64,000 nt of DNA. It comes from an uncultured Flavobacteriaceae bacterium (GTDB lineage Bacteria; Bacteroidota; Bacteroidia; Flavobacteriales; Flavobacteriaceae). Below, piece by piece: positions 19,863 to 55,259 of this stretch. The notes below the pieces were generated by a model. That model did not search any database. It saw only the letters and a list, made by a program, of their open reading frames with translations, and was not told the DNA's origin. Every line of letters begins with the position of its first letter. Position 1 is the stretch's first letter. The stretch is taken from assembly GCA_905479625.1 (NCBI GenBank), contig CAJQNF010000051.1:1-64000 (forward strand), written 5' to 3'. A program made the translations under genes and the position numbers.

Positions 19863-20081
19863 ATTTATTTCTTAATATAAAGTTAACGTCAGTTTGCAGT
19901 TTTTTTTCTCCACTGATTCGGCATAGTCATATCCACCGTTTTAAAGCACTAGTTGTACTATTTTATCAATTTTATGTACTCTATTATCAAGGATTGCTGC
20001 ACGTTGTATGTTTTTTGTATAGGCATAAAAAGAAAAATTATGTCAGATCTCTTGTATTTTTCGGATTCAAAATATTGTTAT

Positions 20082-23096: not shown

Positions 23097-23101
23097 TAAC
23101 T

Positions 23102-24586: not shown

Positions 24587-27500
24587 ATGAAATATTTAAA
24601 AACCCTTTTAGTATTAATTTTATTTGGAACGGCGTTCGTTTCTTGTGAAAAAGACGAAGTTTCTTATGCTTTTCAAGAAATATCGGCGCCTACCAATGTT
24701 ACGGCTAATTTTGATGTAACACAAGATGACTCAGGATTGGTTACTGTAACGCCATCCGGTGAAGGAGCAGAATCATTTAAAGTTTATTGGGGAGAATCTG
24801 CCAATGAAGATCCGGAAATTGTTACTCCAGGTGGATCATTGGATCATACCTATGCAGAAGGAGAATTTAAGGTAAGAGTAGTGGGTGTAGGATCAACAAA
24901 TCTTACCAGCGAGTACCAACAGATGCTAACGGTGTCTTTTAGTGCTCCTGAAGAGTTGAAAGTAACAATAGATCAGAGTTCACCAAATCCAAACTTAATT
25001 AAAGTGAGTGCAACAGCAGTAAACGCAACTTTGTTTGATGTTTACTTTGGTGATGTTGAAGATGAAGAACCAACTCAATTGATGCCTGATGAAACAATAG
25101 AGTACACTTATGAAGCTACCGGTGATTATACCGTAAGAGTTGTTGCTAAAGGTGCAGGAGCTGCGACTTTAGAATATTCAGAAGAAATTACCATAGCAGA
25201 GGCTTCAGGTACAATTGCATTACCAATTACATTTGATGATCCAACGGTAAATTATGTTGAAAATATAGATGGCGCTTTTAGTGTGGTGGATAATTCATCA
25301 AAAGGAGGATCTAATGATACTGATTCAAAAGTAGGTGCCATTGAGAATGCAGGAGATGCCTATGAAGCTATTGTAGTGAATTTAGGAACACCTGTAGATT
25401 TTGCTTCTAATAAGAAGATTACCATAAAACTATATTCAACAACTGCTATTCCTATAGCGATGAAATTTGAAGGAGGAGTTGATGGAGAGCGTGAAAATGA
25501 AGTAGTGGTGCAACATGGTGGAACAGGTTGGGAAGATTTAACTTTTGACTATGCAACCGATGCTACTAAGAGTTATATCGATGGAAACCAAGGTGTAGGA
25601 GAACCATTTGTACCAACTGGAAAATATGCAACCATGGTGATCTTTGTTGATTTTGCGGGAACAACTGCAGGAACATTTTATATTGATGATATAGAACAGG
25701 AAAACCTTAACACAACACCATTGGAGCTTCCGATTAGTTTTGACGATGCATCTGTAAATTATGAAGGATCAATAGATGGGTCTTTCAGTGTGGTTGATAA
25801 CCCTGCTCCGGGAGGTGCAAATAATGTTGCATCCAAAGTAGGTGCTATAGAAAATGCAGGAGAATTGTACGAAGCCATAGTGCTTAACATGGGAGTGCCT
25901 GTAGATTTTAGTAGTAACAAAACTATCACAGCAAAATTATGGTCAACTACAGAATTGCCTGTAGCCATGAAGTTTGAGGGAGGAGTCAATGGAGAGCGTG
26001 AAAATGAAGTCGTTGTAACTCACGGCGGAACAGGTTGGGAGGACTTAACTTTTGACTATGCCAACAATGCTACAAAAAGTTATATAGATGGAAACCAGGG
26101 AGTAGGAGAACCTTTTGTTCCTACAGGGCAATATGCTACTATGGTCATCTTTGTTGATTTTGGAGGACCAACAGCTGGAACATTCTATATTGATGATATA
26201 GTGCAAGAAGGAACAGCGGTAGCATGTACTGAAGAAATGGATGAAAACATTGATCCTGCAGCCGGTGATATCAACTGGACATTTAAATCCAAAGATATTG
26301 ATCACAGTTTTGAACCATTTGGAGATATCGCTTCTGAAATTGTAAATAATCCAAATCCTTCAGGGATCAACGAAAGTTGTAATGTACAGAGTTACATAAA
26401 AACAGCAAATTGTCAAACTTGGTCTGGTGTTGGAAAGGGTTTAGCAAATGCCATCGATCTTACCAGTGCTCCTAATAAAGCCTTTAAGTTAATGGTATAT
26501 GGGGAATCCAAAACAACAAAAGTAACCTTGCAGTTGGAATTTGAACCATTTCCAAATACAGATCCTCTTGTAGCTATTGATCAGGAGATGACAAAAGTAG
26601 GTGAGTGGGAAGAATTAACATTCGATTTCTCAGCGCATTCAGATAAGACTTTTAAAAGTATTATAGTTTATTTTGACAGAGACAACACTTGTGATGATGC
26701 AGTGTATTATTTTGATAACCTGAAACAGGTTGCAGGTGATGACAATGGAGGTGGACCAATTGGCGGAACAGGGCCAACAACTTTCCCTATTGATTTCGAA
26801 ACTGCAGAAACAGGAGCTAGCTCAAAATTTGATGTTTTTGAAGCGGATACACCTCCACTTGAAGTTATTGCTAATCCTGATATGTCAGGAGAAAACACTA
26901 CAGCAACTGTAGCTAAATTTACAGCACCATTTGGTGGAGCCGACTATGCTGGTACGGTTACTGCATTGAAAGACAAATTTACTTTGGATGCAACGAATAG
27001 TTCAGTTTCCATTATGGTTTGGAAATCTGTAATTAGCGACGTAGGAATTAAGTTTGAATCAAATAAGGCTTCAACTGGTGAGATTAAAATTGCCAATACG
27101 AAGATTAACGAATGGGAAGAAATTGTTTTTGATTTTTCAGGTAAAATAGGTGAAGGTAGCTCTACTGATATTGATGCCATAGTTGTCTTCCCTGATTTCG
27201 ATGCCAGAACTCAAGACAATATCGTTTATTTCGATAATATAACTTTATCGGCTTCATCCGGCGGAGGTGGTTCAGGTCCAGATTCTTCTGCTCCTATACC
27301 TTCAGCGAAAACATCTGATGTGAAATCAATTTTTAGCGATGCCTATGACGATGTGGCGGGAACAGATTTTTTCCCAAATTGGGGTCAGGGTACAACTTAT
27401 GAACAAATTGACCTGATGGGTGATGCAGCAATCAAATATGCCAATTTGAATTATCAAGGAATTGCCATTGGATCTGCAGTTGACGCTACAGGATCTGAAA

Positions 27501-28258
27501 GTATTCATATTGATATATGGTCGGATGATTATACAGTTGTTCCTTTCTTTTTGATAAGTGCAGGTTCCGGAGAAAAGAGTGTTAACCTTTCCGTTGAAGC
27601 AAATAAGTGGAATAGTATTGATGTTCCATTGAGTGCATTCACTGATCAAGGACTAGCAGTTAATGATATTATTCAATTCAAGTTTGATGTGCAACCTAAT
27701 AATGGGGGCACCATTTATATCGATAATCTTTATTTTGAGGTAAATGATTCAGGAGGCTCAGCCTCACTTGAGTTACCTATCACATTTGATGATTCATCTT
27801 TGGATTATGAAGGATTAATTGATGGCTCGTTTAGCGTTGTTGACAATCCTGCTCCAGGAGGCGCCAATAATGTGGCTTCAAAAGTAGGTGCTATTGCAAA
27901 TGCAGGAGTTAACTGGGAAGCTATTGTAGCCAACATGGGAACAGCAGTTGATTTTAGTACGGATAAAACGATCAAAATAAAAGTTTGGTCAACAAGCTCA
28001 TTACCAATATTATTGAAGTTTGAAGGCGGTGTTAACGGAGAACGTCAGAATGAAGTTTCAGTGACTCATGGTGGAACAGGTTGGGAAGAATTAACCTTTG
28101 ATTTTGCCACCAGTGCTACAAAAAGCTATATAGATGGTAATCAAGGTGTCGGAGAAGCTTTCGTCCCAACAGGGCAATACAAAACTATGGTCATCTTTGT
28201 TGATGGTCCTGGAACAGCTGCTGGAACATTTTATATTGATGACATAATTCAAGAATAA
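24587..28258 (+). CDS. Modular surface glycan-binding lipoprotein: two PKD/Fn3-like modules plus six CBM-like jelly-roll modules, three of them near-identical
   Basis: Lipobox FVSCEKD; repeated modules LPI(T/S)FDD...GAFSVVDN...GGTGWE(D/E)LTFDYA..ATKSYIDGNQGVGEPFVPTG(K/Q)YATMVIFVDF...TFYIDDI. Confidence 0.85.
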   Translation: MKYLKTLLVLILFGTAFVSCEKDEVSYAFQEISAPTNVTANFDVTQDDSGLVTVTPSGEGAESFKVYWGESANEDPEIVTPGGSLDHTYAEGEFKVRVVGVGSTNLTSEYQQMLTVSFSAPEELKVTIDQSSPNPNLIKVSATAVNATLFDVYFGDVEDEEPTQLMPDETIEYTYEATGDYTVRVVAKGAGAATLEYSEEITIAEASGTIALPITFDDPTVNYVENIDGAFSVVDNSSKGGSNDTDSKVGAIENAGDAYEAIVVNLGTPVDFASNKKITIKLYSTTAIPIAMKFEGGVDGERENEVVVQHGGTGWEDLTFDYATDATKSYIDGNQGVGEPFVPTGKYATMVIFVDFAGTTAGTFYIDDIEQENLNTTPLELPISFDDASVNYEGSIDGSFSVVDNPAPGGANNVASKVGAIENAGELYEAIVLNMGVPVDFSSNKTITAKLWSTTELPVAMKFEGGVNGERENEVVVTHGGTGWEDLTFDYANNATKSYIDGNQGVGEPFVPTGQYATMVIFVDFGGPTAGTFYIDDIVQEGTAVACTEEMDENIDPAAGDINWTFKSKDIDHSFEPFGDIASEIVNNPNPSGINESCNVQSYIKTANCQTWSGVGKGLANAIDLTSAPNKAFKLMVYGESKTTKVTLQLEFEPFPNTDPLVAIDQEMTKVGEWEELTFDFSAHSDKTFKSIIVYFDRDNTCDDAVYYFDNLKQVAGDDNGGGPIGGTGPTTFPIDFETAETGASSKFDVFEADTPPLEVIANPDMSGENTTATVAKFTAPFGGADYAGTVTALKDKFTLDATNSSVSIMVWKSVISDVGIKFESNKASTGEIKIANTKINEWEEIVFDFSGKIGEGSSTDIDAIVVFPDFDARTQDNIVYFDNITLSASSGGGGSGPDSSAPIPSAKTSDVKSIFSDAYDDVAGTDFFPNWGQGTTYEQIDLMGDAAIKYANLNYQGIAIGSAVDATGSESIHIDIWSDDYTVVPFFLISAGSGEKSVNLSVEANKWNSIDVPLSAFTDQGLAVNDIIQFKFDVQPNNGGTIYIDNLYFEVNDSGGSASLELPITFDDSSLDYEGLIDGSFSVVDNPAPGGANNVASKVGAIANAGVNWEAIVANMGTAVDFSTDKTIKIKVWSTSSLPILLKFEGGVNGERQNEVSVTHGGTGWEELTFDFATSATKSYIDGNQGVGEAFVPTGQYKTMVIFVDGPGTAAGTFYIDDIIQE
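25220..25702 (+). repeat. CBM-like module copy 1 (protein-level repeat)
   Basis: LPITFDDPTVNYVENIDGAFSVVDN...TFYIDDIEQE. Confidence 0.85.
25727..26209 (+). repeat. CBM-like module copy 2 (protein-level repeat)
   Basis: LPISFDDASVNYEGSIDGSFSVVDNPAPGGANNVASKVGAIENAG...TFYIDDIVQE. Confidence 0.85.
27773..28255 (+). repeat. CBM-like module copy 3 (protein-level repeat)
   Basis: LPITFDDSSLDYEGLIDGSFSVVDNPAPGGANNVASKVGAIANAG...TFYIDDIIQE. Confidence 0.85.
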
Positions 28259-33159: not shown

Positions 33160-36100
33160 ATGAGTGCAAACCATATCTACATAGGAAATAATGAAACTTC
33201 CTTTGAAACAAAAGAAATAAAAGGTGAATTAATTTTCTTTGAGAATGAAAATTATTATAAAATCACGAATAATGATGCCATGAGACCTTTCTTTATGAGC
33301 ATTGTTAGTGATTCAAATCATTGGATGTTTATCTCGAGTAATGGAGGCTTGTCGGCTGGTAGAAAGGATTCTGAATCATCTTTGTTTCCCTATTATACAG
33401 ATGATAAAATAACAGAATCTGCTGATATCACCGGAAGTAAAACAATCTTGCAGATTCATAAAGAAGGCAAAACTTACCTTTGGGAACCTTTTTCTGACAG
33501 ATATTCAGGCATATACAAGACGCATAGAAACTTATACAAAAACAGTTTTGGAAACAAGGTGGTTTTTGAGGAAACCAATGAAGATTTAGGTCTCACATTT
33601 AGATACCAATGGAATTCAAGCGATAAATTTGGGTTTGTACGAAAATCAACCTTGGTCAATGATATAAATTCAAGTAGTAAGATTTCGGTTTTAGATGGGA
33701 TTCAAAATATACTGCCTTATGGTGTTAATGCTGGTTTACAAAATGATAGAAGCAATTTAGTTGACGCCTATAAAAAGTGTGAATTAGAGGCAGCGGTGGG
33801 TATTGGAATTTATGCTTTAAGTGCAATAATTGTTGATAAAGCAGAACCAAGCGAGGCTCTAAAAGCAAGTACAGTATGGTCGACTGGAATCGAGAATGCA
33901 ACATATCTATTGTCGTCTTTACAAGTTGACAAGTTTAGAAAAGGTCAGGAAATAACGCAAGAGGCAGATATTAAAGCGGAGAAAGGAGCTTATTTTGTGA
34001 GTTCAGATATAACTTTAGCACCTAATTCTGAGAAAACCTGGATGATGGTTGCAAATGTTAACCAAACAATGGTGAACATAAGTGAAATTGGTGAAATGAT
34101 TAGGAAAGGAGTTGATCTTAATGCTATTGTACAGGCAGATATTGAGCTAGGGTCCAAAAAATTATTGGAACTGAATGCTGCTTCAGACGGGGTACAATTA
34201 ACTGCCGATAGTTTGATGAATACCAGGCATTTTTCAAATACTCTTTTCAACATTATGCGAGGAGGAATATTTGATGACGGCTATCAAATTGAAAAATGGG
34301 ATTTTGTAAAATATATTGAAATTGCTAACAAAAAAATATTTAAGAAAAAAGAGGCGCTTTTAGAAAACCTTCCCGAATTATTTACATTGAGCCATTTAAA
34401 AGAATTGGCTTTAAAAGATGCAGACAAAAACTTTAAGAGACTTGTCATTGAGTATATGCCGCTTAAATTTAGTAGACGGCATGGTGATCCAAGTAGACCC
34501 TGGAACAGGTTTTCAATTAATACAACGAGTGAATTAGATGGTTCAAAAATATTGGACTATGAAGGAAACTGGAGGGATATTTTTCAAAACTGGGAAGCCC
34601 TGGCTCATTCATATCCTGAGTTTATCGAAAGTATGATCCATAAATTCCTGAATGCGACAACTTTTGATGGTTATAATCCATACAGAGTAACAAAAGGCGG
34701 CTTTGACTGGGAGACAATTGAACCAGATGATCCTTGGTCATATATCGGGTATTGGGGAGATCATCAAATTATCTACCTATTAAAATTTTTAGAGTTTATT
34801 GAACATCATTACCCCAGTCAATTGGCAAAATACTTTGATCAGGATATTTTTGTTTATGCCAATGTGCCCTATAGGATTAAAAGTTATGCAGATATCTTGT
34901 TAAACCCTAAAGACACGATTGATTTTGATCATGAAGCGGATGAAAAAATTGCTCAAAAAAGAGTAGAATTAGGTGCTGATGGGGCCTTACTAAGGGATAA
35001 AAACTTTTTTATCTACAAAGTCAATCTTATTGAAAAACTGTTGGCAACAGTTTTGGCAAAAGTATCAAACTTTATTCCTGAGGGAGGAATTTGGATGAAT
35101 ACACAAAGGCCTGAATGGAATGATGCAAATAATGCTTTGGTAGGAAACGGTGTATCTATGGTAACCTTGTATTATCTGAGACGCTTTTTGAATTTCTTTG
35201 AAGGAATAGTCCAAAACATGCCTGAAGGAGACAATGAAGTATCCATTGAATTGGCCCAGTTTTTTAATATGGTACTCGACACTTTTAAAGACAATACCCA
35301 TATACTTTCGGGAAGAGTATCCGATAAGGATCGAAAAACTGTCTTAGACGGACTTGGAAATGCGGGGAGTGAATTCAGAACAGGTATTTACGAAAATGGT
35401 TTTTCTAGTGATAAGGCTGCCATTTCAAAAACTGATTTATTAACGTTTTTAAAGGTTTCCAAACAATATTTGGACCATACTATAGACGCGAATAAAAGAG
35501 AGGATAATTTATTCCATGCCTACAATTTAATGACAGTTGAGAGTGATTCAGAAGTTTCAATCTCTTATTTACCGGAAATGTTAGAAGGCCAGGTAGCTGC
35601 TTTGAGTTCAGGATATATCTCCGGAAAGGCTTCATTAGAAGTTTTAGATGCCTTGAAGAAAAGTGCTTTATTCAGACCGGATCAATACAGTTATATATTG
35701 TATCCTAATAAAGAGTTACCAAGATTTGATGTAAAGAATAATATTCCGGCTCATAAAATAAAGACTTCAGGTTTACTGAAGCAGCTTTTAGAAGACGGGA
35801 ACAAACAAGTTGTTGAAAAAGACGTAGATGGAAACTTCCATTTTAACGGAACATTCAACAATGCAGAAAGTTTAAAAGAAGCGCTTTCAAGCTTGCCAGT
35901 CGAACAATATGGCGAGCTGGTTGAAAAAGATACAGACTTACTTTTAGAAACCTTTGAAGAGATTTTTGATCATAAATCGTTTACAGGAAGATCGGGAACT
36001 TTTTATGGTTACGAAGGCTTGGGTTCTATTTATTGGCACATGGTTTCAAAATTAGTCTTAAGTATTCAAGAAACTTGCTTGTTAGCTATTAAAAATGGAG

Positions 36101-36621
36101 AAGATGATGTTGTCATTGGCAAATTATTAGACCATTATTACGAAGCCAGCGAGGGAATCGGAGTTCATAAATCACCAGAGTTATACGGAGCCTTCCCAAC
36201 TGATCCGTATTCGCATACGCCTGGAAGTAAAGGAGCACAGCAACCTGGGATGACGGGTCAGGTTAAAGAGGATATCTTAAGTAGATTTGGAGAATTAGGA
36301 GTGTCTGTTGCCGATGGAAAACTGATGTTCAATCCTCGTTTACTTAGACAAGAAGAGTTTTTGAAAAGTCCTGAAACATTTAAATATGTTGATATTCAAA
36401 AGGAGTTAAAAGAGATTGAAGTAGGTAGCGATTCACTTTGTTTTACCTATTGTCAAATCCCGGTTATATACAAACTAGCCTCAAAAGAGGGGATACAAGT
36501 GCTGTTTGGTGATAACAATGTTTTAGAATCTGCAGAGATGTATCTCGATGCACAAACAAGTAAAAAAGTTTTTGAAAGATCCGGAGAAATTAGCCAGATT
36601 ATTGTTTCAATAAAAAAATAG
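33160..36621 (+). CDS. Very large (1153 aa) cytosolic protein, putative GH94-clan beta-glucan phosphorylase (GH161- or GH149-like)
   Basis: No signal peptide; N-terminal NHWMFISSNGGLSAGRKDSESSLFPYYTDDKI; GGFDWETIEPDDPWSYIGYWGDHQIIYLLKFLEF; size and PUL context fit beta-1,3-glucan phosphorylases. Family call from memory only. Confidence 0.5.
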   Translation: MSANHIYIGNNETSFETKEIKGELIFFENENYYKITNNDAMRPFFMSIVSDSNHWMFISSNGGLSAGRKDSESSLFPYYTDDKITESADITGSKTILQIHKEGKTYLWEPFSDRYSGIYKTHRNLYKNSFGNKVVFEETNEDLGLTFRYQWNSSDKFGFVRKSTLVNDINSSSKISVLDGIQNILPYGVNAGLQNDRSNLVDAYKKCELEAAVGIGIYALSAIIVDKAEPSEALKASTVWSTGIENATYLLSSLQVDKFRKGQEITQEADIKAEKGAYFVSSDITLAPNSEKTWMMVANVNQTMVNISEIGEMIRKGVDLNAIVQADIELGSKKLLELNAASDGVQLTADSLMNTRHFSNTLFNIMRGGIFDDGYQIEKWDFVKYIEIANKKIFKKKEALLENLPELFTLSHLKELALKDADKNFKRLVIEYMPLKFSRRHGDPSRPWNRFSINTTSELDGSKILDYEGNWRDIFQNWEALAHSYPEFIESMIHKFLNATTFDGYNPYRVTKGGFDWETIEPDDPWSYIGYWGDHQIIYLLKFLEFIEHHYPSQLAKYFDQDIFVYANVPYRIKSYADILLNPKDTIDFDHEADEKIAQKRVELGADGALLRDKNFFIYKVNLIEKLLATVLAKVSNFIPEGGIWMNTQRPEWNDANNALVGNGVSMVTLYYLRRFLNFFEGIVQNMPEGDNEVSIELAQFFNMVLDTFKDNTHILSGRVSDKDRKTVLDGLGNAGSEFRTGIYENGFSSDKAAISKTDLLTFLKVSKQYLDHTIDANKREDNLFHAYNLMTVESDSEVSISYLPEMLEGQVAALSSGYISGKASLEVLDALKKSALFRPDQYSYILYPNKELPRFDVKNNIPAHKIKTSGLLKQLLEDGNKQVVEKDVDGNFHFNGTFNNAESLKEALSSLPVEQYGELVEKDTDLLLETFEEIFDHKSFTGRSGTFYGYEGLGSIYWHMVSKLVLSIQETCLLAIKNGEDDVVIGKLLDHYYEASEGIGVHKSPELYGAFPTDPYSHTPGSKGAQQPGMTGQVKEDILSRFGELGVSVADGKLMFNPRLLRQEEFLKSPETFKYVDIQKELKEIEVGSDSLCFTYCQIPVIYKLASKEGIQVLFGDNNVLESAEMYLDAQTSKKVFERSGEISQIIVSIKK

Positions 36622-36623
36622 AG

Positions 36624-37922
36624 ATGAAAATGAATTTTAAACTTAAAATATTGGCGATCGCAGCCATCTTACTAGTAACTGTTGGATGTGGAAATAAGTC
36701 AAAAAAAGAAGCCGAAACCGTTGATAAAGATAAAGAAATGACTAAAGTGAAAGATAGAACTGCTGCTGAGATACTGGGAAACCCGGATTATTTAGCCATG
36801 TCTTATGGAGGTTACAGGCATGTTGATCATGATATAGAACCCACATTAGACGAATTAAAAGATGATATGAAACTATTGTCTGCTATGGGAGTTAAAATTG
36901 TGCGTACCTACAAAGTACACTTGCCACAAGCAGCTAATTTATTAAAAGCAATTTCTGAATTAAAGAAAGAGGATCCTGATTTTGAAATGTATGTGATGTT
37001 GGGTGCCTGGATCGATTGCAAAAATGCATGGACAGATCTGGAGCCAGATCACGAGGTGGAGAGTGAAGCAAATGCTCCTCAAATTGAAGAAACTGTAAGA
37101 TTAGCAAATCAATATCCAGCTATTGTAAAAGTTATTGCAGTAGGAAATGAAGCGATGGTTCATTGGGCGGCAACGTATTTCGTTCGACCTTCAGTTATTT
37201 TAAAATGGGTAAATCATTTACAAGGTTTAAAAGAAGCTGGAAAACTTCCCAAAGATTTATGGATCACCAGTTCTGATGACTTTTCTTCCTGGGGAGGAGG
37301 CGGTGCGGAGTATCATACGGAGGATCTCGAAAAATTATATAACGCTGTAGATTATATCTCGATGCATACCTATCCTTATCACAATACGCACTACAACCCT
37401 GAATTTTGGATTATAGAAGATGATGAGAAATTATCTGATGTGGAGAAAATTGATGCTGCGATGATTCGTGCACAAGCTTTTGCAAAGAAGCAATATGACA
37501 GTGTTTCAGGTTATATGAAAAGTATTGGTGTTGAGAAACCTATTCATATTGGCGAAACAGGCTGGGCTACAGTTTCAAAACCAGGGGATTTTTATAGTGC
37601 TACAGGATCCAGAGCAACTGATGAATATAAATCAGGAATGTATTATAAATTGATGCGCGAATGGACAAATGAGGCTGGTATGTCATGTTTTTATTTTGAA
37701 GGATTTAATGAGCCATGGAAAGATTCGAAAAACCCGATGGGTTCTGAAAACCATTTTGGCTTATTCACCAAAGAAGGCCAGGCTAAATATGCCTTATGGG
37801 ATATGGTTGATAGTGGGGTTTTTGAGGGATTGACTAGAAATGGAAACCCGATTGTTAAAACTTATAATGGAGATAAAGAGGAATTAATGAAACAGGTTTT
37901 GGTCCCTCCCACAGCTGAGTAA
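36624..37922 (+). CDS. GH17-like beta-1,3-glucan-active lipoprotein
   Basis: Lipobox TVGCGN; GVKIVRTYKVH; VGNEAMVHW; IHIGETGWAT; ACFYFEGFNEPWK. Confidence 0.8.
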   Translation: MKMNFKLKILAIAAILLVTVGCGNKSKKEAETVDKDKEMTKVKDRTAAEILGNPDYLAMSYGGYRHVDHDIEPTLDELKDDMKLLSAMGVKIVRTYKVHLPQAANLLKAISELKKEDPDFEMYVMLGAWIDCKNAWTDLEPDHEVESEANAPQIEETVRLANQYPAIVKVIAVGNEAMVHWAATYFVRPSVILKWVNHLQGLKEAGKLPKDLWITSSDDFSSWGGGGAEYHTEDLEKLYNAVDYISMHTYPYHNTHYNPEFWIIEDDEKLSDVEKIDAAMIRAQAFAKKQYDSVSGYMKSIGVEKPIHIGETGWATVSKPGDFYSATGSRATDEYKSGMYYKLMREWTNEAGMSCFYFEGFNEPWKDSKNPMGSENHFGLFTKEGQAKYALWDMVDSGVFEGLTRNGNPIVKTYNGDKEELMKQVLVPPTAE

Positions 37923-37933
37923 ATAACGATTAA

Positions 37934-38965
37934 ATGCATAATAAAAAATTCATTATAATTGGCGCATTAACACTTGTGCTCGTAAGTAGTTTACTCTCTT
38001 TTTGTACACCTTTTAATCATGCAGAAGTAAAGATTTCAGGACGTCAGATTATAGTAAATAACAATCCTTATATAATAAAGGGTATTTGTTATCACCCTGT
38101 TCCTAAAGGTAGTGATAAAAGAGACTTTGGGAACTTGACTAGGGATTTAGCCCTCATGGTTGAGGCAGGAATAAATACCATAAGAGTTTATGAGCCCATC
38201 GATGATAAAGTTGTTTTGGATAAAATACATGCCGCAGGGATAAAAGTGATCATTGGATTTGGATACAATCAAGGTGGAAATTATGATATCCTGTCAGGCA
38301 CATTTATCGATTATATAAATAAATACAAAAACCATGAAGCCATTTTGCTTTGGGAACTCGGCAATGAATATAATTATCATCCGGAATGGTTTGAAGGGGA
38401 CCTTAAAAACTGGTATACGGCATTAAATAATGCCGCAGACAGTATTCATAAAAATGATCCTTCTCACCCGGTAACTACTGCTCATGGAGAGTTGCCAGAT
38501 GCATTAGCTCTATCTTCTTGTCCTAATATTGATGTTTGGGGAATGAACGTTTATCGTTGGGATAATCCTGAAGGAATATTTTCTCAATGGAAGGCCATCA
38601 GTTCAAAACCTATGTACTTATCCGAAGCCGGAGGAGATAGTTATATGTCTATTTCGAAAGATGGTTATGAGAAAGGGGTAAATGAAAAAGTGCAAGCTGA
38701 TGCAAATGCCAAAATTCTTGAAAGCGTTTTTAATAATTTAGAAGTGTCTTCTGGGGTAACCTTATTTTCATTCACAGATGGATGGTGGAAGGCAGGAAAT
38801 AATGACACCCAGGATGCTGGTGGGTGGGCACCTAATAGTACGGGTGTGCCCTATGACGGAACTCCTAATGAGGAATATTGGGGGATTGTGGATATAGACA
38901 GGAAGAAAAAAGAAACATTTGAAGTTGTAAAAATAAAGTTCAATCAATCATCCAATAAAAATTAG
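37934..38965 (+). CDS. Clan GH-A TIM-barrel glycoside hydrolase (GH2/GH5/GH72/GH158-like; exact family unresolved), lipoprotein
   Basis: IIVNNNPYIIKGICYHP; GINTIRVYEPI; LLWELGNEYNYH; PMYLSEAGGD. Confidence 0.7.
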   Translation: MHNKKFIIIGALTLVLVSSLLSFCTPFNHAEVKISGRQIIVNNNPYIIKGICYHPVPKGSDKRDFGNLTRDLALMVEAGINTIRVYEPIDDKVVLDKIHAAGIKVIIGFGYNQGGNYDILSGTFIDYINKYKNHEAILLWELGNEYNYHPEWFEGDLKNWYTALNNAADSIHKNDPSHPVTTAHGELPDALALSSCPNIDVWGMNVYRWDNPEGIFSQWKAISSKPMYLSEAGGDSYMSISKDGYEKGVNEKVQADANAKILESVFNNLEVSSGVTLFSFTDGWWKAGNNDTQDAGGWAPNSTGVPYDGTPNEEYWGIVDIDRKKKETFEVVKIKFNQSSNKN

Positions 38966-40537: not shown

Positions 40538-42880
40538 ATGTCTACAGTCTCTAAAAAAGTTCCATTCGGTCAAAAAGTCGCCTTTGGAATTGGTATGCTT
40601 GCCAATCAAATGTTTCCTGCAGCCATGGGTATATTTATGGTAGTATTAGTGCAAGACCTGGGTTTTCCCGGTTGGATGTGGGGGGTGATATTCTTTACGC
40701 CTAGACTTTTTGATTCTATCACAGATCCAATTATGGGGTTTATTTCGGATAATACGAAATCAAAATATGGAAGACGTAAACAATATGTTTTATTAGGCGC
40801 TATAATAATGGGAATTTCATTCTCAATTCTGTGGCAATTGTATAGAGAAAATGGTATAGAATATAATTTCATTTATTTTATGTTATGGTCTTTTATATTT
40901 TATTTAGGGTTAACAATTTTTAGTGTGCCTTATGTTGCTATGGGCTATGAAATGAGTGATGATTTTCATGAACGAACCAATATTATGGCTGTTGCCCAAT
41001 GGATTGGACAATGGGCATGGGTTATAGCACCATGGTTTTGGGTAATTATGTACGATCAGGGCTGGTTTGAATCTGCTGATGTTGCCACAAGAACAATAGC
41101 CGTTTGGGTTGGCGTTATTTGTATGATTTTTGCAATGGTGCCTGCTATTTTTATAAAGAGTAAATCTACATTAAACGAAGATTATCAACCGTTAAATGTA
41201 AAAAATATAGGAAACAGTTTTAATGGAATTATTGATGGGTTTAAGGAGGCTTTCAAAAATAAACCTTTTAGAAAATTATGTATTGCCACTTTTTTGGTCT
41301 TCAATGCTTTTAATACAGTTGCTGCTTTTACTTTTTTTATTGTTGTCTATTATTTATTTAGTGGGGATGCTGGTGCGGCCGGAATATGGCCTACGCTTTT
41401 TGGCAGCTTAGGTGCTTTATCTACAACATTCCTGGTTATTCCAATAGTGACGAGAATGTCGAAAATAATGGGAAAAAAAAGAGCTTTTATAGCATCTCAA
41501 AGTATTTCAATCCTAGGGTATTTTATGCTTTGGTTTTTATTCATACCCGGAAAACCCTATATGTTCATTTTCGCCTTACCATTTTTTGCTTTTGGTATAG
41601 GAAGTTTATTTACACTAATGATGTCTATGACGGCAGATGTAATTGACCTTGATGAATTAAATACAGGATTGCGAAGAGAGGGTGTTTTTGGGGCCATATA
41701 TTGGTGGATGGTTAAGTTTGGTTTTGCCATAGCTGGTTTATTAAGTGGTCTAATTTTGTCAATTATAGGTTTTGATGCTGATGCTGCTTCTCAGACGGAA
41801 GGGGCAATAACCGGATTAAGATTATTCTTTTCAGGCTTACCAATGCTAGGAACGTTAATTGCTATTTTAGTGATGTGGGGTTATGACATGACCGAAGAGC
41901 GCGCCAATGAAATAAGTATCGAATTGAATAGGCGCAAGGCTGCTGAAAGCCCAGACCTCACTGCCAAATATAAAAGTGGTAAATTATTATCATTTGTATC
42001 AGAAGGTTTAAATATTGATTCAAAAAACAGTATTGATTTCTCCACAAAATCTAAGGCAGAAATTAAAAAACGCTATGCCAGTTCATTGAAGGATGGTCTT
42101 TACGGTTTATGTTTTAGTCCTTATGAGGAAGGACAGGATATTGGCGATATCTTAACTGAAGATCAAATAAGAAAGCGAATGGATATCATTGCTCCTTACA
42201 CGAAATGGGTGCGTTCTTTTTCTTGCACAGAAGGCAACGAGTTTATTCCTAAAGTAGCGAAAGAAAAAGGGCTAAAAACAATGGTTGGTGCCTGGATTGG
42301 GAATGATAAAGCTCAAAATGATAATGAGATTAGCGCCTTAATTAATCTTGCGAATCAAGGGCATGTTGACGTAGCAGTAGTCGGAAATGAAGTTTTACTT
42401 AGAAACGAATTGACAGTGCAGGAAATAATTGATTATATCAAACAAGTAAAACGGGCATTACCAGACATATCCGTTTCTTATGTGGATGCTTATTATCAAT
42501 TCTCAGAGCATCCAGAACTGGTTGAAGTTTGCGATGTTATTCTGGCTAATTGTTATCCATTTTGGGAGGGTTGTCATATAGATCAAGCATCAAATTATTT
42601 ACAACAAATGTATAAAGTTGTCGAAAAAGCTTCACAAGGTAAATCAGTTATGATTACTGAAACTGGTTGGCCTAGCGAAGGGGATAAAACAAATGAAGCA
42701 GAAGCTACCCAGGAAAATGCCATTAAGTATTTTATCGATGTTAACAATTGGGCAAACAAACAAGGAGTGAAGTTGTATTATTTCTCATCATTTGATGAAT
42801 CTTGGAAGGTTCATCACGAAGGAGATGTGGGGCAGCGTTGGGGAATTTGGAATAAAAATGAAGAACTAAAAAATATATAA
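40538..42880 (+). CDS. Fusion protein: GPH-family MFS sugar transporter (about aa 1-475) joined to C-terminal GH17 domain (about aa 490-780)
   Basis: Single 780-aa frame. N-terminus FGQKVAFGIGMLANQMFPAAMGIF, FDSITDPIMGFISDNTKSKYGRRKQYVL, VPYVAMGYEM (GPH hallmarks); C-terminus YGLCFSPYEEGQ...VVGNEVLLRN...VMITETGWPS...YFSSFDESWK (GH17), highly similar to the next ORF. Confidence 0.9.
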   Translation: MSTVSKKVPFGQKVAFGIGMLANQMFPAAMGIFMVVLVQDLGFPGWMWGVIFFTPRLFDSITDPIMGFISDNTKSKYGRRKQYVLLGAIIMGISFSILWQLYRENGIEYNFIYFMLWSFIFYLGLTIFSVPYVAMGYEMSDDFHERTNIMAVAQWIGQWAWVIAPWFWVIMYDQGWFESADVATRTIAVWVGVICMIFAMVPAIFIKSKSTLNEDYQPLNVKNIGNSFNGIIDGFKEAFKNKPFRKLCIATFLVFNAFNTVAAFTFFIVVYYLFSGDAGAAGIWPTLFGSLGALSTTFLVIPIVTRMSKIMGKKRAFIASQSISILGYFMLWFLFIPGKPYMFIFALPFFAFGIGSLFTLMMSMTADVIDLDELNTGLRREGVFGAIYWWMVKFGFAIAGLLSGLILSIIGFDADAASQTEGAITGLRLFFSGLPMLGTLIAILVMWGYDMTEERANEISIELNRRKAAESPDLTAKYKSGKLLSFVSEGLNIDSKNSIDFSTKSKAEIKKRYASSLKDGLYGLCFSPYEEGQDIGDILTEDQIRKRMDIIAPYTKWVRSFSCTEGNEFIPKVAKEKGLKTMVGAWIGNDKAQNDNEISALINLANQGHVDVAVVGNEVLLRNELTVQEIIDYIKQVKRALPDISVSYVDAYYQFSEHPELVEVCDVILANCYPFWEGCHIDQASNYLQQMYKVVEKASQGKSVMITETGWPSEGDKTNEAEATQENAIKYFIDVNNWANKQGVKLYYFSSFDESWKVHHEGDVGQRWGIWNKNEELKNI

Positions 42881-42882
42881 TT

Positions 42883-43770
42883 ATGTCTGTAAGAGCAGGA
42901 AAAATAAGATCATTAATTGGAATAGACCAAGCTGATAAAACCGATAAAGGGTTACAGAATTTATATAAGAGGCTATTAAAAAATGGAATGCATGGCTTGT
43001 GTTTTAGCCCTTATGAAGAAGGGCAAGAGCCTGGAGATCAAATTTCTGAGGAGCAAATCAGGAGAAGGATGAAAATAATAAAACCATATACTAAATGGAT
43101 TCGTTCATTTTCTTGTACCGATGGCAACGAAGTCATTCCTCGTATCGCTCATGAATATGGTATTAAAACAATGGTTGGTGCCTGGTTAGGAGACGATCCG
43201 GAAATCAATAAGCGAGAAATAGCCAACTTAATTAAATTGGCAAAAGAAGGTTATGTTGATATTGCAGCAGTAGGAAATGAAGTGATGTATCGTAAAGACT
43301 TGTCTGAAGATGAATTATTGGCTTTTATGCATCAGGTAAAAGAGGCCGTTCCGGAAATACCTATGGGCTATGTAGATGCTTATTATGAATTTTCAAACCG
43401 CCCGAGAATTACAGAAGCATGTGATGTGATTTTGGCAAATTGTTATCCGTTTTGGGAAGGCTGTAGTTTAGAGTACTCATTAATTTATATGAAAGAAATG
43501 TACAATCAGGCTGTTAAAGCAGCCAATGGAAAAAAAGTGATCATTTCTGAAACGGGATGGCCATCTATGGGAGGAAGTTTTCAAGGCTCGCACCCATCTT
43601 TTCCAAATGCAATGAAGTATTTTATCAATACACAATTATGGTCACAGCAAGACGATATAGATATTTTTTACTTTTCGTCCTTTGATGAATCCTGGAAGGT
43701 AGGATCAGAAGGGGATGTTGGTGCTTTCTGGGGTCTATGGGATAAAAATGAGAAAATCAAGAAATTTTAA
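42883..43770 (+). CDS. Stand-alone cytosolic GH17 family protein, paralogue of the fused domain
   Basis: HGLCFSPYEEGQEPGDQISEEQIRRRMKIIKPYTKWIRSFSCTDGNE; AVGNEVMYR; IISETGWPS; no signal peptide. Confidence 0.88.
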   Translation: MSVRAGKIRSLIGIDQADKTDKGLQNLYKRLLKNGMHGLCFSPYEEGQEPGDQISEEQIRRRMKIIKPYTKWIRSFSCTDGNEVIPRIAHEYGIKTMVGAWLGDDPEINKREIANLIKLAKEGYVDIAAVGNEVMYRKDLSEDELLAFMHQVKEAVPEIPMGYVDAYYEFSNRPRITEACDVILANCYPFWEGCSLEYSLIYMKEMYNQAVKAANGKKVIISETGWPSMGGSFQGSHPSFPNAMKYFINTQLWSQQDDIDIFYFSSFDESWKVGSEGDVGAFWGLWDKNEKIKKF

Positions 43771-43809: not shown

Positions 43810-44739
43810 ATGAATTATACAACAGCATTAAATATGGCGTCAGGAAAAGCTATTTGTTATTCTGGTTTTCGAGAAGGTCAAAAACCGGGAGGAGTTGTTC
43901 CGAGCTATGAAGAGATTAAAGAAGATCTTCAAATGCTTCAACATCATTGGCAATACCTTCGCCTGTATGACTGTGATCCACATGCTGAAATAGTTCTAGA
44001 AGTTATCCAAAACGAGAATCTTGATTTTAAAGTAATGCTTGGTGCATACATTGTTGCAGAAGCCAATAATTACGGTTGTCCATGGGGTGGGTCTTATTCT
44101 GAAGATCAGTTGCACAACAATAAATCAATCAATGAAAAACAGATCAGGAAGTTAATTCATTTAGCGAACAAATTTCCCGACATCATATTTTCATTATCTG
44201 CAGGGAATGAGGCTTGCGTTGATTGGACGGATCACTATGTACCCGTTGACAGTGTCATCGAATATGTAAAGATGATAAAAAAGGAAACCAAACAGCCAGT
44301 TACATTTTGTGAAAACTATCTCCCTTGGCTCGACAAGCTAAAAGGTCTGGTGGAAGTAGTCGATTTTATTTCGATTCATACGTATCCGGTTTGGGAGTAT
44401 AAGAACATTCATGAAGCAATGGAATATACAAAAAGCAATTATTTTGCTGTTGCAGATACGTATCCTGATAAACCAGTGGTTATCACTGAAGCCGGATGGA
44501 CAACCTATTCAAATGGAAAAGGTATTTGTCCAAGTAATGTAAGTGAAGAATTTCAAAGCATTTATTATAATGATTTGATGGATTGGAGCATGGATGCAAA
44601 TATTCTTACCTTTGTTTTTGAAGCTTTTGATGAATCCTGGAAAGGATCTAGCGAAGCCTTGGAGCCCGAAAAGCATTGGGGACTGTTTACAGTGAATAGA
44701 AAACCAAAAAAAGTTATGCAGAACCTTTTTAGCATATAA
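43810..44739 (+). CDS. GH17 family protein, no signal peptide
   Basis: CYSGFREGQKPGG; LSAGNEACVDW; VVITEAGWTT; FVFEAFDESWKG. Confidence 0.85.
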   Translation: MNYTTALNMASGKAICYSGFREGQKPGGVVPSYEEIKEDLQMLQHHWQYLRLYDCDPHAEIVLEVIQNENLDFKVMLGAYIVAEANNYGCPWGGSYSEDQLHNNKSINEKQIRKLIHLANKFPDIIFSLSAGNEACVDWTDHYVPVDSVIEYVKMIKKETKQPVTFCENYLPWLDKLKGLVEVVDFISIHTYPVWEYKNIHEAMEYTKSNYFAVADTYPDKPVVITEAGWTTYSNGKGICPSNVSEEFQSIYYNDLMDWSMDANILTFVFEAFDESWKGSSEALEPEKHWGLFTVNRKPKKVMQNLFSI

Positions 44740-45791: not shown

Positions 45792-47300
45792 ATGAAAAAT
45801 ATTTTGTCAGTTTTGTTGGTCATTCCTATGCTATTATTATGGTCATGTAGTGACGATTCCACAGAAATTGAACCCGTGGTTCAAGGCACGGAAATTACCA
45901 AATTTTATTTTTTAAAAGCCAGTAATCCAGATCTGGATGTGGATCGGTATGCAACTATAGAAAATGATATCATAAGTACTAGACTACCTTTGGGCAGTGA
46001 CATTCAAAATATGGTGGCAAGTTTTAGTCATAGCGGCGCTGAAGTCCTGGTGAATAACATTGCACAAATTAGCGGTGAAACTGTTAATGATTTTACTGAA
46101 ATACAAAATTATAGAGTAAGTACTATAGATGGTAAATCGGGTCAATATGAAGTTGATATGACTTATTTTACAGGTCTTCCTGTGATCTACATAGAGACCG
46201 AAAATAATCAGGAGATTGATTCCAAAGAAGATTATTTTACAGGAACTTTATCCATGGAGGGTGGCCGTTATTATTCAGATTCACCTACGACCCCAATGAA
46301 AATTCGAGGCAGAGGGAATTCAACTTGGGGTGTTCATCCGAAAAAGCCTTATCAGTTAAAGTTCGATGAAAAGACAGAAATGTTAGGAATGCCGAAAGAT
46401 AAAAAATGGATCTTCCTTGCTGAATTCTCAGATAAGGCACTAATAAGAAATAAAATTGCCTTTGAATTGGGTTATTTGAGCCAATTGGATTATACACCTC
46501 AAAGTGTTTTTGTCGAGGTAGTAGTCAATGGTACTTATAATGGGATGTATCATATTTCTCAGAAAGTTGAAGAAAGTGACAACAGAGTGGTTCTGGGTGA
46601 TACGGGTTATTTACTAGAGATTGACCAGTTGGGAAGACTGGACCCGGATGATGTTTATTTTAGAACAGATAAGTTTTTGATCAATATAAAAGAACCCGAA
46701 ATAGAGTATAACAGTAATGAGTTTAATTATGTGAATGATTTGATCAATGAGTTTGAAGACGTATTAATGGGTTCTCAATTTAAGGATCCTGACGTGGGTT
46801 ATGCCAAATATATTGATATTGATAGTTTTATTGACTGGTATCTTATCAGTGAGATTACTAAGAACCAGGATTCCAAAAGCTTTTCAAGTATTTTCCTTAA
46901 TGTGATTCCTGGTGAAAAAATAAAAATGGGTCCACTTTGGGATTTTGATCTTGCTTTTGGAAACGTTGATTATTCAGAGTGTGAATTTCCAACGGGATTT
47001 TGGGTAAAACATCATGACTGGTATGCCAGGCTTTTTGAAGATGCGGTGTTTGTGGAAAAAGTAAAGAACAGATTTTTATATTATAAAGATAACCAGAATT
47101 TCATTCTGGAAAAAATGGACTTTTACGGGAATCAGTTAAAATGGTCTCAGCATGAAAATGATGTGAAATGGGATTTATTTGGAAGGTATGTTTGGCCTAA
47201 CCCAGTATTTTATGATTCACATCAAGCTGAGCTTGATCATCTGAAAAACTGGTATATTGATAGAATGAACTGGTTAGATACAGCGTTTAAAGCTTTATAA
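45792..47300 (+). CDS. CotH-like kinase-fold lipoprotein
   Basis: Lipobox LLWSCSDD; KIRGRGNSTWGVHPKKPYQLKFDEKTEMLGMPKDKKWIFLAEFSDKALIRNKIA; GPLWDFDLAFGN. Confidence 0.88.
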   Translation: MKNILSVLLVIPMLLLWSCSDDSTEIEPVVQGTEITKFYFLKASNPDLDVDRYATIENDIISTRLPLGSDIQNMVASFSHSGAEVLVNNIAQISGETVNDFTEIQNYRVSTIDGKSGQYEVDMTYFTGLPVIYIETENNQEIDSKEDYFTGTLSMEGGRYYSDSPTTPMKIRGRGNSTWGVHPKKPYQLKFDEKTEMLGMPKDKKWIFLAEFSDKALIRNKIAFELGYLSQLDYTPQSVFVEVVVNGTYNGMYHISQKVEESDNRVVLGDTGYLLEIDQLGRLDPDDVYFRTDKFLINIKEPEIEYNSNEFNYVNDLINEFEDVLMGSQFKDPDVGYAKYIDIDSFIDWYLISEITKNQDSKSFSSIFLNVIPGEKIKMGPLWDFDLAFGNVDYSECEFPTGFWVKHHDWYARLFEDAVFVEKVKNRFLYYKDNQNFILEKMDFYGNQLKWSQHENDVKWDLFGRYVWPNPVFYDSHQAELDHLKNWYIDRMNWLDTAFKAL

Positions 47301-51184: not shown

Positions 51185-52798
51185 ATGTCAGACTTAAATA
51201 AATTATCCTTAAAAGAGAAGTTAGGCTACGGTCTAGGCGATGGGGCAGCCAATATTGCCTGGAGAGGGGTAGCGACTTTTCTATTTATTTTTTACACGGA
51301 TGTTTTTGGTCTAAGCCCGGTAACGGTGGGTGTCTTAATGTTGGTTGCACGATTTAGTGATGGAATTAGCGATGTGATCATGGGTGTTGTTGGCGATCGT
51401 ACCAGATCAAAATACGGAAAATTTAGGCCTTGGATCCTATGGACAGCTATTCCTTTGGGCCTTATATTGTCTCTATTGTTTACTTCACCTGATTTAACCG
51501 ATTCGGGTAAAATAGTATATGCTTATGTGACATATATCTTTTTCACACTGATTTATACGGCAAACAATGTTCCTTATGGAGCGCTTATGGCTGTCATGAC
51601 AGGTGATGACAAAGAAAGAACGAGTCTTGGTTCATTTAGGATGGTGGGTGCTTTTGGAGGAGGTATGCTTGTTCAGGGTGCTTTGCTTTTTCTTGTTGCT
51701 CATTTTGGAAATGTAAATCCTGAAATTGGGATAGAACAGTTGGAAGAAGAGAAGTTTAGAGTAACGGTTTCTGCATCATCAGAGGTAGAAAGTGTAAATA
51801 TTAAGACGGAAAACGGCATTGCTGATTTCATATGGGATGACAAAAGTATTGATGTATCTCAAAATGTTCCTACTCATGGAAAAAGTTTCGCTTTGGAAGC
51901 GGATAAAGAATATACTTTTATCGTTACCGGAGAACCCAATATCGTGGCTGATAGTATTTCTCTGATTGATCAAAAAAGAGGTTATAGTAATTCGATGTAT
52001 GTCATGTCGATCTTTCTCAGTCTATTTATGTTTATAACCTTTTATACAACGAAAGAAAGAGTTCAGCCACCTAAGACTCAAAAGAATGATTTAAAAAGAG
52101 ATCTTAAAGACCTGATCAACAATAAACCCTGGTTGGTTTTATTAGTCATCGGTCTTTTATTCAACGTATATAATTCCATCAAACAAGGGATTGTTATCAT
52201 TTATTTTACCCACTATTTAAATAATCAATTGCTGGCGGCTTCATTTTTGGTAGCCTTGATGCTAGCTTCTGTTGCCGGCGCTATGGTGACTGCTCCTCTT
52301 GGAAAGAGGTTTGGCAAGAGAAATTTATTCATTGGAGCTTTACTTTTTTCTGGAGGCATAAATTCATTATTCTTTTTTCTTGGGCCAACAGATGTCACAG
52401 CAGTGTTTACCATAGGTGTTGTTTCTGAATTTGCTTCAGCTATTTTCCCGACTTTGTTTTTTGTGATGTTAGGTGATGCTGCAGATTATTCTGAATTTAA
52501 GAATGGCAGAAGAGCTACTGGTTTAATCTACTCAGCAGGATCGTTTGCTACGAAATTTGGTGGTGGAATTGCAGGTGCTATTATAGGTTTTGTTTTAGGA
52601 GCTTATGCATATAATGGCCAGGACGCTGCTTCAATAGAAGGGGCAATACCAGGAATCATTATGTTGATGAGTTGGGTGCCAGCCGTAATTACGGTCATAG
52701 CTGCAATTTTTATGTTTATCTACCCATTGAATCAAAAGAAAATTGATGAGGTCACTACTGAATTGAATAACAGAAGGTTAAAAGAGAGTAAAATTTAG
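51185..52798 (+). CDS. GPH-family MFS sugar:cation symporter with a ~90-aa soluble central insert
   Basis: LSLKEKLGYGLGDGAANIAWR; RFSDGISDVIMGVVGDRTRSKYGKFRPWILW; insert FRVTVSASSEVESVNIKTENGIADFIWDDKS...EPNIVADSIS. Confidence 0.9.
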   Translation: MSDLNKLSLKEKLGYGLGDGAANIAWRGVATFLFIFYTDVFGLSPVTVGVLMLVARFSDGISDVIMGVVGDRTRSKYGKFRPWILWTAIPLGLILSLLFTSPDLTDSGKIVYAYVTYIFFTLIYTANNVPYGALMAVMTGDDKERTSLGSFRMVGAFGGGMLVQGALLFLVAHFGNVNPEIGIEQLEEEKFRVTVSASSEVESVNIKTENGIADFIWDDKSIDVSQNVPTHGKSFALEADKEYTFIVTGEPNIVADSISLIDQKRGYSNSMYVMSIFLSLFMFITFYTTKERVQPPKTQKNDLKRDLKDLINNKPWLVLLVIGLLFNVYNSIKQGIVIIYFTHYLNNQLLAASFLVALMLASVAGAMVTAPLGKRFGKRNLFIGALLFSGGINSLFFFLGPTDVTAVFTIGVVSEFASAIFPTLFFVMLGDAADYSEFKNGRRATGLIYSAGSFATKFGGGIAGAIIGFVLGAYAYNGQDAASIEGAIPGIIMLMSWVPAVITVIAAIFMFIYPLNQKKIDEVTTELNNRRLKESKI

Positions 52799-52823
52799 AG
52801 TTTATTATAAAATTTAAAAAGAA

Positions 52824-55259
52824 ATGAAATACGGTCATTTTGATGATGCCAATAGGGAATATGTGATCACAAACCCTAAAACCCCTTATCCATGGATCAA
52901 CTATCTGGGTAATGAGGACTTTTTCTCACTGACTTCAAATACCGGAGGAGGTTATACTTTTTACAAGGATGCTAAATTCAGAAGACTTACACGTTACAGA
53001 TATAACAATGTGCCTGTTGATGATGGAGGGAAATATTTTTATATCAAAGATGGTGATACAGTTTGGTCGCCGGGATGGAAGCCTGTAAAAACAGAACTTG
53101 ATAGCTACGAATGCCGTCACGGGATGAGTTATACAAAAATTAAAGGCTCAAAAAATGGTGTAAGTACGGAAGTGTTGCAATTCATTCCACTAGGTTTCTG
53201 GGGAGAGATCCAAAAAGTTAGTATTAGCAATGACAGTGCTGAGGTCAAGAAATTGAAGTTGTTTTCTTTTGTAGAATGGTGTTTATGGAATGCTGAAGAT
53301 GACATGACTAATTTCCAACGAAACTTTAATACCGGGGAAGTTGAGATAGAAGAAAGTGTGATCTATCATAAAACTGAATTTAAGGAAAGACGAAACCATT
53401 ACGCTTTTTATTCTGTCAATAACGATATTCAGGGTTTTGATACAGATCGGGAATCATTTGTTGGTTTGTATAATGGGTTTGATAGCCCTGATGCCGTAGA
53501 TAAAGGGACGCCTGGAAATACGATCGCGCATGGCTGGTCTCCGATAGCTTCGCATTATCTTGAGATAGAATTACAGCCAGGAGAACAGAAAGATCTGGTA
53601 TTTATGCTGGGTTACGTTGAGGTTGATAAAGACGATAAATGGGAATCTAAGGCAGTGATCAATAAGAAACCTGCCAAGGACATGATCAAAAAATACGATA
53701 CAGTGGCTAAAGTTGATGAAGCCTATGAGGAACTCCGTTCTTACTGGGATAACCTGCTTTGCACCATTTCGGTGGAATCTGGTGATGACAAACTAGACCG
53801 TATGGTCAATATCTGGAATCAATATCAATGTATGGTCACCTTTAATATGTCTCGTTCCGCCTCTTTCTTTGAGTCAGGAATTGGCAGAGGGATGGGATTC
53901 AGGGATTCAAACCAGGATTTAATTGGCTTTGTGCATCAAATACCTGAAAGAGCAAGAGAAAGAATTTTTGACATTGCCTCGACACAATTTGAAGACGGTT
54001 CATGTTACCACCAATACCAACCCTTAACCAAAAAAGGAAATTCTGCCGTAGGTGGAGACTTTAATGATGATCCATTGTGGTTGATACTGTCAACTACTGC
54101 CTATATTAAGGAAACAGGAGATTTCTCTTTATTGGACGAAATGGTTCCCTTTGACAATGACGCTTCAAGGGCCAAACCTCATTTTGACCATCTAAAGGCT
54201 TCTTTTTACCATGTGGTGAATAATTTAGGACCTCATAAATTGCCTTTGATTGGCAGGGCCGACTGGAATGATTGCTTGAATTTAAATTGTTTTTCAAATG
54301 ATCCAAATGAGTCTTTTCAAACAACTGGAAATAAAAAAGGTGATACAGCAGAATCATTAATGATCGCTGGATTATTTGTGGTGTATGGCAAGGAATATGT
54401 TGACTTATGCAGATTTGTTGGAAAAGATGAGGAAGCTGATAAAGCTCAAAATCATGTAGATCAAATGATAGAGGCCGTTAAAGCTCATGGATGGGACGGA
54501 GACTGGTATTTAAGAGCCTATGACTATTATGGTAAAAAAATAGGTTCCGATGAAAATGAAGAAGGTAAAATCTTTGTGGAATCTCAAGGCTGGTGTGCTA
54601 TGGCTGAAATTGGCAAAGAGGAAGGAATGGTTGAAAAAGCATTGGATTCAGTCAAAGAGCATCTTGATTGTGAATACGGCGTAGTCCTTAATTATCCTGC
54701 TTTTACAAAGTACCATATAGAATACGGTGAAATTTCTACCTATCCTGCCGGATACAAAGAAAACGGAGGTATTTTTTGCCATAATAACCCATGGATCATG
54801 ATAGGTGAAACTATGCTGGGGAGGGGTGATCATGCCTATGATTATTACACAAAAATAGCGCCAAGTTTCCTTGAAGATATTTCAGATTTACACAAGGTTG
54901 AACCTTATGTATACTGTCAGATGATCGCCGGAAAAGAAGCATTTAAGCCTGGTGAAGCTAAAAATTCATGGCTTTCTGGTACAGCGTCATGGAATTTTTA
55001 TGCAATTACCCAATATATTCTTGGTGTTAGACCCGAGTATGATGGTTTACGCATAGACCCATGTATTCCTAAAAAATGGGATGGCTTTAAAATGCAACGA
55101 AAATTCAGAGATGCTACCTACCAGTTGGAAATAAAAAATCCGGATCATGTCAGTAAGGGAGTGAAGCATATCATAGTAAATGGAGAAACTTTAAGCTCAA
55201 ATGTAATTCCACTACTTGAGAAAGGTAAAAATCATATAGTCGAAATAATTATGGGATAA
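52824..55259 (+). CDS. GH94 glycoside phosphorylase (cellobiose phosphorylase-like; acceptor linkage unproven)
   Basis: [73 protein letters not shown]-type C-terminus; cytosolic. Confidence 0.92.

Follow-up and report, generated by a model that had tools for sequence, protein, structure and literature searches.

A GPH symporter-GH17 fusion in a variant-1 laminarin PUL of an uncultured Flavobacteriaceae bacterium: a putative importer with a tethered cytosolic hydrolase

Why should a sugar carrier and a glycoside hydrolase be encoded as one chain, and what would such a chain do for the cell? The question is raised by a 780-aa reading frame in the window, by which we mean the whole stretch of 64,000 nucleotides analysed here (contig CAJQNF010000051.1, from an uncultured Flavobacteriaceae bacterium). 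We read its product as the sugar importer that serves a variant-1 laminarin PUL at the inner membrane, with a tethered cytosolic GH17 hydrolase that would supply cytosolic processing, and we give this reading a probability of roughly 0.88. Much marine carbon is stored as laminarin, and a physical coupling of its uptake and cleavage could affect the speed of bacterial uptake. The reading frame is divided as follows.

40538-42880, plus strand: GPH symporter-GH17 fusion (FbGH17B/FORMB_24740 type), 780 aa, open frame without internal stop
40538-41947, plus strand: 12-TM GPH/MelB-type symporter domain, residues 1-470, N-in/C-in (Pfam PF13347, hydropathy, positive-inside bias, Foldseek)
41948-42067, plus strand: linker, residues 471-510, variable, of low confidence and without TM segment (column entropy, pLDDT)
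42068-42877, plus strand: GH17 TIM-barrel domain, residues 511-780, predicted cytosolic (Pfam, PDB search, model, Foldseek)

Both halves were recognised by sequence search. In Pfam, residues 16-452 match MFS_2/GPH (PF13347, E=1e-66, 225 bits) and residues 688-778 match Glyco_hydro_17 (E=1e-12), while among PDB sequences MelB matches residues 12-463 (E=2e-16) and the beta-1,3-glucanosyltransferase RmBgt17A (4wtp) residues 537-762 (E=2e-37). Against TIGR00792 the carrier half scores 195 bits over the full model, below the curated cut-off of 231, and the GH17 half found no match in NCBIfam, which therefore holds no model of the fusion. An AlphaFold model built from 47 intact fused sequences (mean pLDDT 85.5, pTM 0.62) places a low-confidence stretch, at about residues 471-500, between a helical membrane domain and an alpha/beta domain, for which the best Foldseek matches were MelB 9old (TMt 0.86) and RmBgt17A 4wtr (TMt 0.88, rmsd 2.2), respectively. 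The preliminary description had claimed a GPH-type carrier and a GH17 domain in a single chain and had proposed structure prediction as a check; the prediction recovered both folds. By sequence and predicted fold, the N-terminal domain is a member of GPH (TC 2.A.2) and the C-terminal domain, a TIM barrel with two catalytic Glu, a member of GH17. The carrier half shares GPH fold and topology with the melibiose permease MelB (9old, 7l16), which differs in having no enzyme domain, only 17-19% identity and another substrate. The fused GH17 domain, in turn, shares its fold, the catalytic Glu pair and the +1/+2 subsite Trp/Glu with RmBgt17A of Rhizomucor miehei (4wtp/4wtr), whereas the latter is a fungal transferase with Tyr102 and without a transporter.

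Such an architecture was described already in 2018, and the window protein is another case of it. FORMB_24740 (FbGH17B) of Formosa was reported as a multi-modular MFS-GH17 protein of a kind common, by BLAST, in marine Flavobacteriia, and a coupling of uptake and hydrolysis was proposed (Unfried et al. 2018; PMC6246565). In vitro, its GH17 activity was that of an exo-beta-1,3-glucosidase, acting on debranched laminarin only and converting oligosaccharides to glucose (PMC6246565). In a 2023 study, most of the variant-1 laminarin PULs that were expressed during a North Sea bloom contained such a fusion, with cases from Bacteroidota as well as Gammaproteobacteria (PMC10108472). The preliminary description, which knew of no characterised transporter-GH17 fusion, thus loses its claim to novelty to published work in which the protein had been assayed and the same coupling hypothesis put forward. 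Like FbGH17B of Formosa sp. Hel1_33_131, the window protein joins an N-terminal MFS and a C-terminal GH17 domain in one gene, has its place after GH17A and GH30 in a laminarin PUL that also encodes GH149 and SusCD, and is non-aromatic at the Tyr136 site (Met in FbGH17B, Leu in the window); the organism differs, and the likeness drawn here is one of architecture, locus and site residue. With a 12-TM MFS/GPH carrier and a GH17 domain in one ORF, and with GH149, GH17A, GH30 and SusCD around it, it is a protein of the FbGH17B type. The same fusion and PUL type are found in North Sea Bacteroidota and in SAR92, Luminiphilus and SAR86 MAGs (PMC10108472), the gammaproteobacterial copies being likened by their published description.

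The fusion is embedded in the following genes.

17007-19811, plus strand: Y_Y_Y/GerE (LuxR-type) regulator at the PUL head (domain search)
19953-24565, plus strand: SusC/SusD pair, SusC from 19953 and SusD from 23102 (domain search)
24587-28258: large repeat protein, 1223 aa, lipoprotein-like
from 28278: GH16
from 30044: GH30
from 31579: sugar-porter MFS
33160-36621, plus strand: GH149 beta-1,3-glucan phosphorylase without signal peptide (NCBIfam NF058639, 1802 bits)
36624-37922, plus strand: GH17A-type lipoprotein, of the periplasmic endo-laminarinase type (Pfam)
37934-38965: GH2/GH72-like barrel protein, 343 aa
38981-40492, plus strand: GH30 lipoprotein, of the GH30_1 debranching beta-1,6-glucosidase type (Pfam; order as in PMC6246565 and PMC13188888)
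42883-43770, plus strand: free GH17, 295 aa, without signal peptide, MlGH17B-like, predicted cytosolic transglycosylase
43810-44739, plus strand: third signal-less GH17, of another subgroup, 26% identical to the fused domain
from 44880: GH16

Judged by its gene content, this locus is a variant-1 laminarin PUL. The order GH149-GH17A-(GH30)-fusion-free GH17 is kept across Bacteroidota, and of 101 fused loci, 94 have a free GH17 immediately downstream of the fusion, at a median distance of 3 nt; among the remaining 7, several are cut off by a contig edge. In the window the free gene, whose product is 54% identical to the fused GH17 domain, begins 2 nt past the stop codon of the fusion (at 42883). 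The GH149 enzyme requires a DP of at least 2 (PMC6484121). Several other genes of the locus deserve a remark. The protein at 24587-28258 consists of several near-identical modules (LPITFDD..YEGSIDGSFSVVDNPAPGG..) with hardly any Pfam match and is a candidate laminarin-binding repeat protein. That at 37934-38965, which occurs in only some related loci, begins with a hydrophobic segment, contains a TIM barrel of the GH2-C type and weakly resembles GH72. The third GH17 (43810-44739), with the motifs LSAGNEA and VITEAGW, is in many loci the gene directly 3' of the free GH17, and a CotH-kinase family protein (PF08757) is encoded at 45792-47300, between GH16 and a sugar transporter.

In the mechanism that we propose, the GH30 and GH17A lipoproteins would make linear laminari-oligosaccharides in the periplasm, the GPH symporter half would import them, and the tethered exo-type GH17, mainly a hydrolase like FbGH17B, would cleave them just inside the membrane; glucose-1-phosphate and glucose would then be produced from the cytosolic pool by the free GH17B-type transglycosylase and GH149. 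These last two may cooperate on short chains, by analogy with MalQ and MalP, which act together on maltodextrins. To our knowledge, no transport substrate has been measured for any member of this fusion type.

How tightly, then, would import and cleavage be coupled? Being fused, carrier and GH17 are necessarily made at 1:1 and in the same place. Metabolic channelling, the direct hand-over that the preliminary description had inferred, would go further: the GH17 site would dock where the carrier opens to the cytosol, take the oligosaccharide directly and pull transport forward. That the two domains form one chain on the same side of the membrane is in keeping with channelling, as are the coupling proposed by Unfried et al. 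2018 (PMC6246565) and the retention of the fusion across many families, together with one separate fusion of a free gene. Nevertheless, the linker is the least conserved part of the protein (mean column entropy 2.40, versus 0.84 and 1.18 in the two domains), its modelled confidence is low (pLDDT about 48-62 around residues 471-500), there is no sign of a fixed domain interface, and carriers 88-89% identical occur without any GH17 domain, all of which make channelling a possible but doubtful extension. The linker of 30-40 residues looks flexible and resembles a loose tether; the segment at nt 41960-42060 that had been picked out as a linker from the outset corresponds to residues 471-510, that is, to this poorly conserved, low-confidence stretch. 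Since the linker varies, the pTM is moderate and near relatives often lack the domain, co-location with fixed stoichiometry is the simpler reading.

The second question is which reaction the fused domain would catalyse, for which three of its residues are central (roles taken from PMC11005184).

42389-42391, plus strand: Glu618, acid/base, in VVGNEV (equivalent to Glu99 of RmBgt17A and Glu133 of MlGH17B; alignment)
42659-42661, plus strand: Glu708, nucleophile, in ITETGWPS (equivalent to Glu189 of RmBgt17A; alignment)
42398-42400, plus strand: Leu621, at the site of the transglycosylation-linked Tyr102 (RmBgt17A) or Tyr136 (MlGH17B; alignment)

Both Glu motifs had been recognised in the preliminary description, and the catalytic site is intact, with E618 and E708 invariant in fused (97/97) and free (117/117) homologues alike. 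Also invariant in the homologues are W676 and E677, which correspond to Trp191 and Glu192 of MlGH17B. The Tyr-Trp-Glu triad that marks the +1/+2 subsites of transglycosylases is nonetheless incomplete in the fused domain, its Tyr being Leu621; an alternative assignment of the Tyr136 site to M582 (KTMVGAW) was ruled out, as numbering against RmBgt17A gives residue 621. In the neighbouring free GH17 the triad is complete, and its E133, Y136, W191 and E192 bear the same numbers as in MlGH17B. This difference extends to the wider sample: site 621 holds Leu in 62, Met in 24, Tyr in 6, Gln in 2, His in 2 and Phe in 1 of the 97 fused domains, and Tyr in 106 and Leu in 11 of the 117 free ones, so that Leu or Met replaces the transglycosylation-linked Tyr in 86/97 fused domains. 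A transglycosylase of the MlGH17B/RmBgt17A kind, rebuilding or trapping imported oligosaccharides, would fit the invariant W676 and E677 and a nearest solved structure that is a beta-1,3-glucanosyltransferase, but it is improbable in view of Leu621, of the Tyr102Ala substitution that abolished transfer in RmBgt17A (quoted in PMC11005184) and of FbGH17B, which carries Met at this site and is reported to be hydrolytic. Because the Tyr is lost in the fused domain and kept in the free enzyme, the former is probably a hydrolase, a prediction that rests on one site, Tyr-to-Leu, and the latter probably a transglycosylase. The preliminary description had left the choice between the two activities open for the fused domain; it now leans to hydrolase and away from transglycosylase. 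The predicted hydrolase matches the reported activity of FbGH17B, and the predicted free transglycosylase matches MlGH17B of Muricauda lutaonensis, an enzyme placed in the cytoplasm and encoded beside an MFS carrier in a laminarin PUL (PMC11005184, PMC13188888). MlGH17B belongs to the same GH17 subgroup as the fused domain (PMC11005184), but as a free 295-aa transglycosylase it has its window counterpart in the gene at 42883-43770, not in the fused domain.

Alignment-averaged hydropathy places 12 membrane segments within residues 20-445 of the fusion and none past residue 446, with neither a 13th helix nor a signal before GH17, and the even-numbered, cytosolic loops contain 22 Lys and Arg residues, the odd-numbered ones 2. 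Because the 12 TM segments, the positive-inside bias and the MelB fold put both ends of the carrier in the cytosol, the GH17 domain is predicted to be cytosolic and membrane-tethered, as had been proposed from the start, while the orientation of the domains is uncertain owing to the model pTM of 0.62. An odd TM count or an inverted insertion would make the domain periplasmic, and Unfried et al. do call some pathway enzymes periplasmic residents (their drawing is a homology model); set against the topology evidence just given, such a placement is very improbable.

That an assembly, frameshift or read-through artefact has fused two neighbouring genes is conceivable, as relatives without the fusion have a free GH17 close after the transporter on the same strand, but its probability is negligible, since the fused domain belongs to the fused lineage, a free-lineage neighbour is still present at 42883, and collinear intact fusions occur in 27/400 sampled genomes of the family and about 75 further loci. 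The source assembly is a draft of 151 contigs with about 84% completeness, and support for the junction comes from these relatives, among them both sampled congeners, one with the fusion on a single-contig genome; the frame is uninterrupted, as first described. Among the 27 genomes, 25 have a full-length match without inner stop, and in the other 2 (G351, G176) the fusion involves a carrier from a second clade, which is more distant. A survey of domain architectures, likewise suggested in the preliminary description, found the fusion widespread in Bacteroidota: in genome contigs, 80 loci were found, mostly with the fusion intact (record titles name Flavobacteriaceae, Saprospiraceae, Cyclobacteriaceae, Chitinophagaceae, Lewinellaceae and others), and the roughly 75 additional intact fusions are spread over many families. 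Apparent larger fusions of 1020-1045 aa (G133, G044, G051 and others) were set aside as separate genes in the same frame, because on translation stops lie between carrier and GH17. A control search of 14 well-known genomes with PF00332 gave no match and hence no comparison.

The history of the domain bears on why it is tethered. In a first GH17 tree of 214 domains, fused and free domains are parted by a single branch with support 99. A wider GH17 tree has one fused protein (L157/L174, genome G438) nested in the free lineage; its linker has kept sequence from the start of the free gene, and the stretch read past it holds no free GH17 copy, which together indicate a separate fusion event. This protein (L174, 1881-4343, minus strand) has 820 aa and joins a carrier to a GH17 domain that belongs, like MlGH17B, to the free lineage. 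A few deep-branching fused domains, most of which hold Tyr or Phe at site 621, may represent a further independent origin. Fused and unfused carriers, by contrast, are intermixed: the state changes 21 times on a FastTree tree, where well-supported branches force at least 11 of the changes, and 18 times, at least 7 of them forced, on an IQ-TREE tree that has 70 rows and omits the far outgroup. These counts do not distinguish gain from loss of the GH17 domain. The carriers nearest to that of the window, up to 88-89% identical, include both fused and unfused ones; the domain is dispensable in close relatives, as carriers there lack it. A recent join of the window's carrier with the neighbouring free GH17 was also considered and rejected, because the fused domain clusters with its fused counterparts from other taxa and the window still has its free copy.

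New here, as far as these comparisons reach, would be the two separate lineages of fused and free GH17, with one exception, on transporters that switch domain presence many times over; the usual lack, in the fused lineage, of the transglycosylation-linked Tyr that the adjoining free enzyme retains; and one separate fusion of a free gene. With about even confidence, we suggest that fused GH17 domains form a distinct lineage specialised for hydrolysis at the membrane and paired with a free transglycosylase sister, that the module is gained and lost on very similar carriers, and that the fusion arose more than once; that this lineage is nearly always tethered is a statement on our sample, because free copies were drawn mostly from beside carriers or as best matches. 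If true, this would suggest that tethering itself is selected for. A natural experiment is offered by carriers that are up to 88-89% identical yet differ in having the domain, and by a hydrolase-like fused enzyme beside a transglycosylase-like free sister; with these, the benefit of tethering, and with it the value of coupling import to hydrolysis, is directly testable. Further along the window, 51185-55259 encodes another GPH symporter, which has 537 aa and an insertion at about residues 180-260, followed by a GH94 phosphorylase, a carrier-plus-phosphorylase pair that is unfused.
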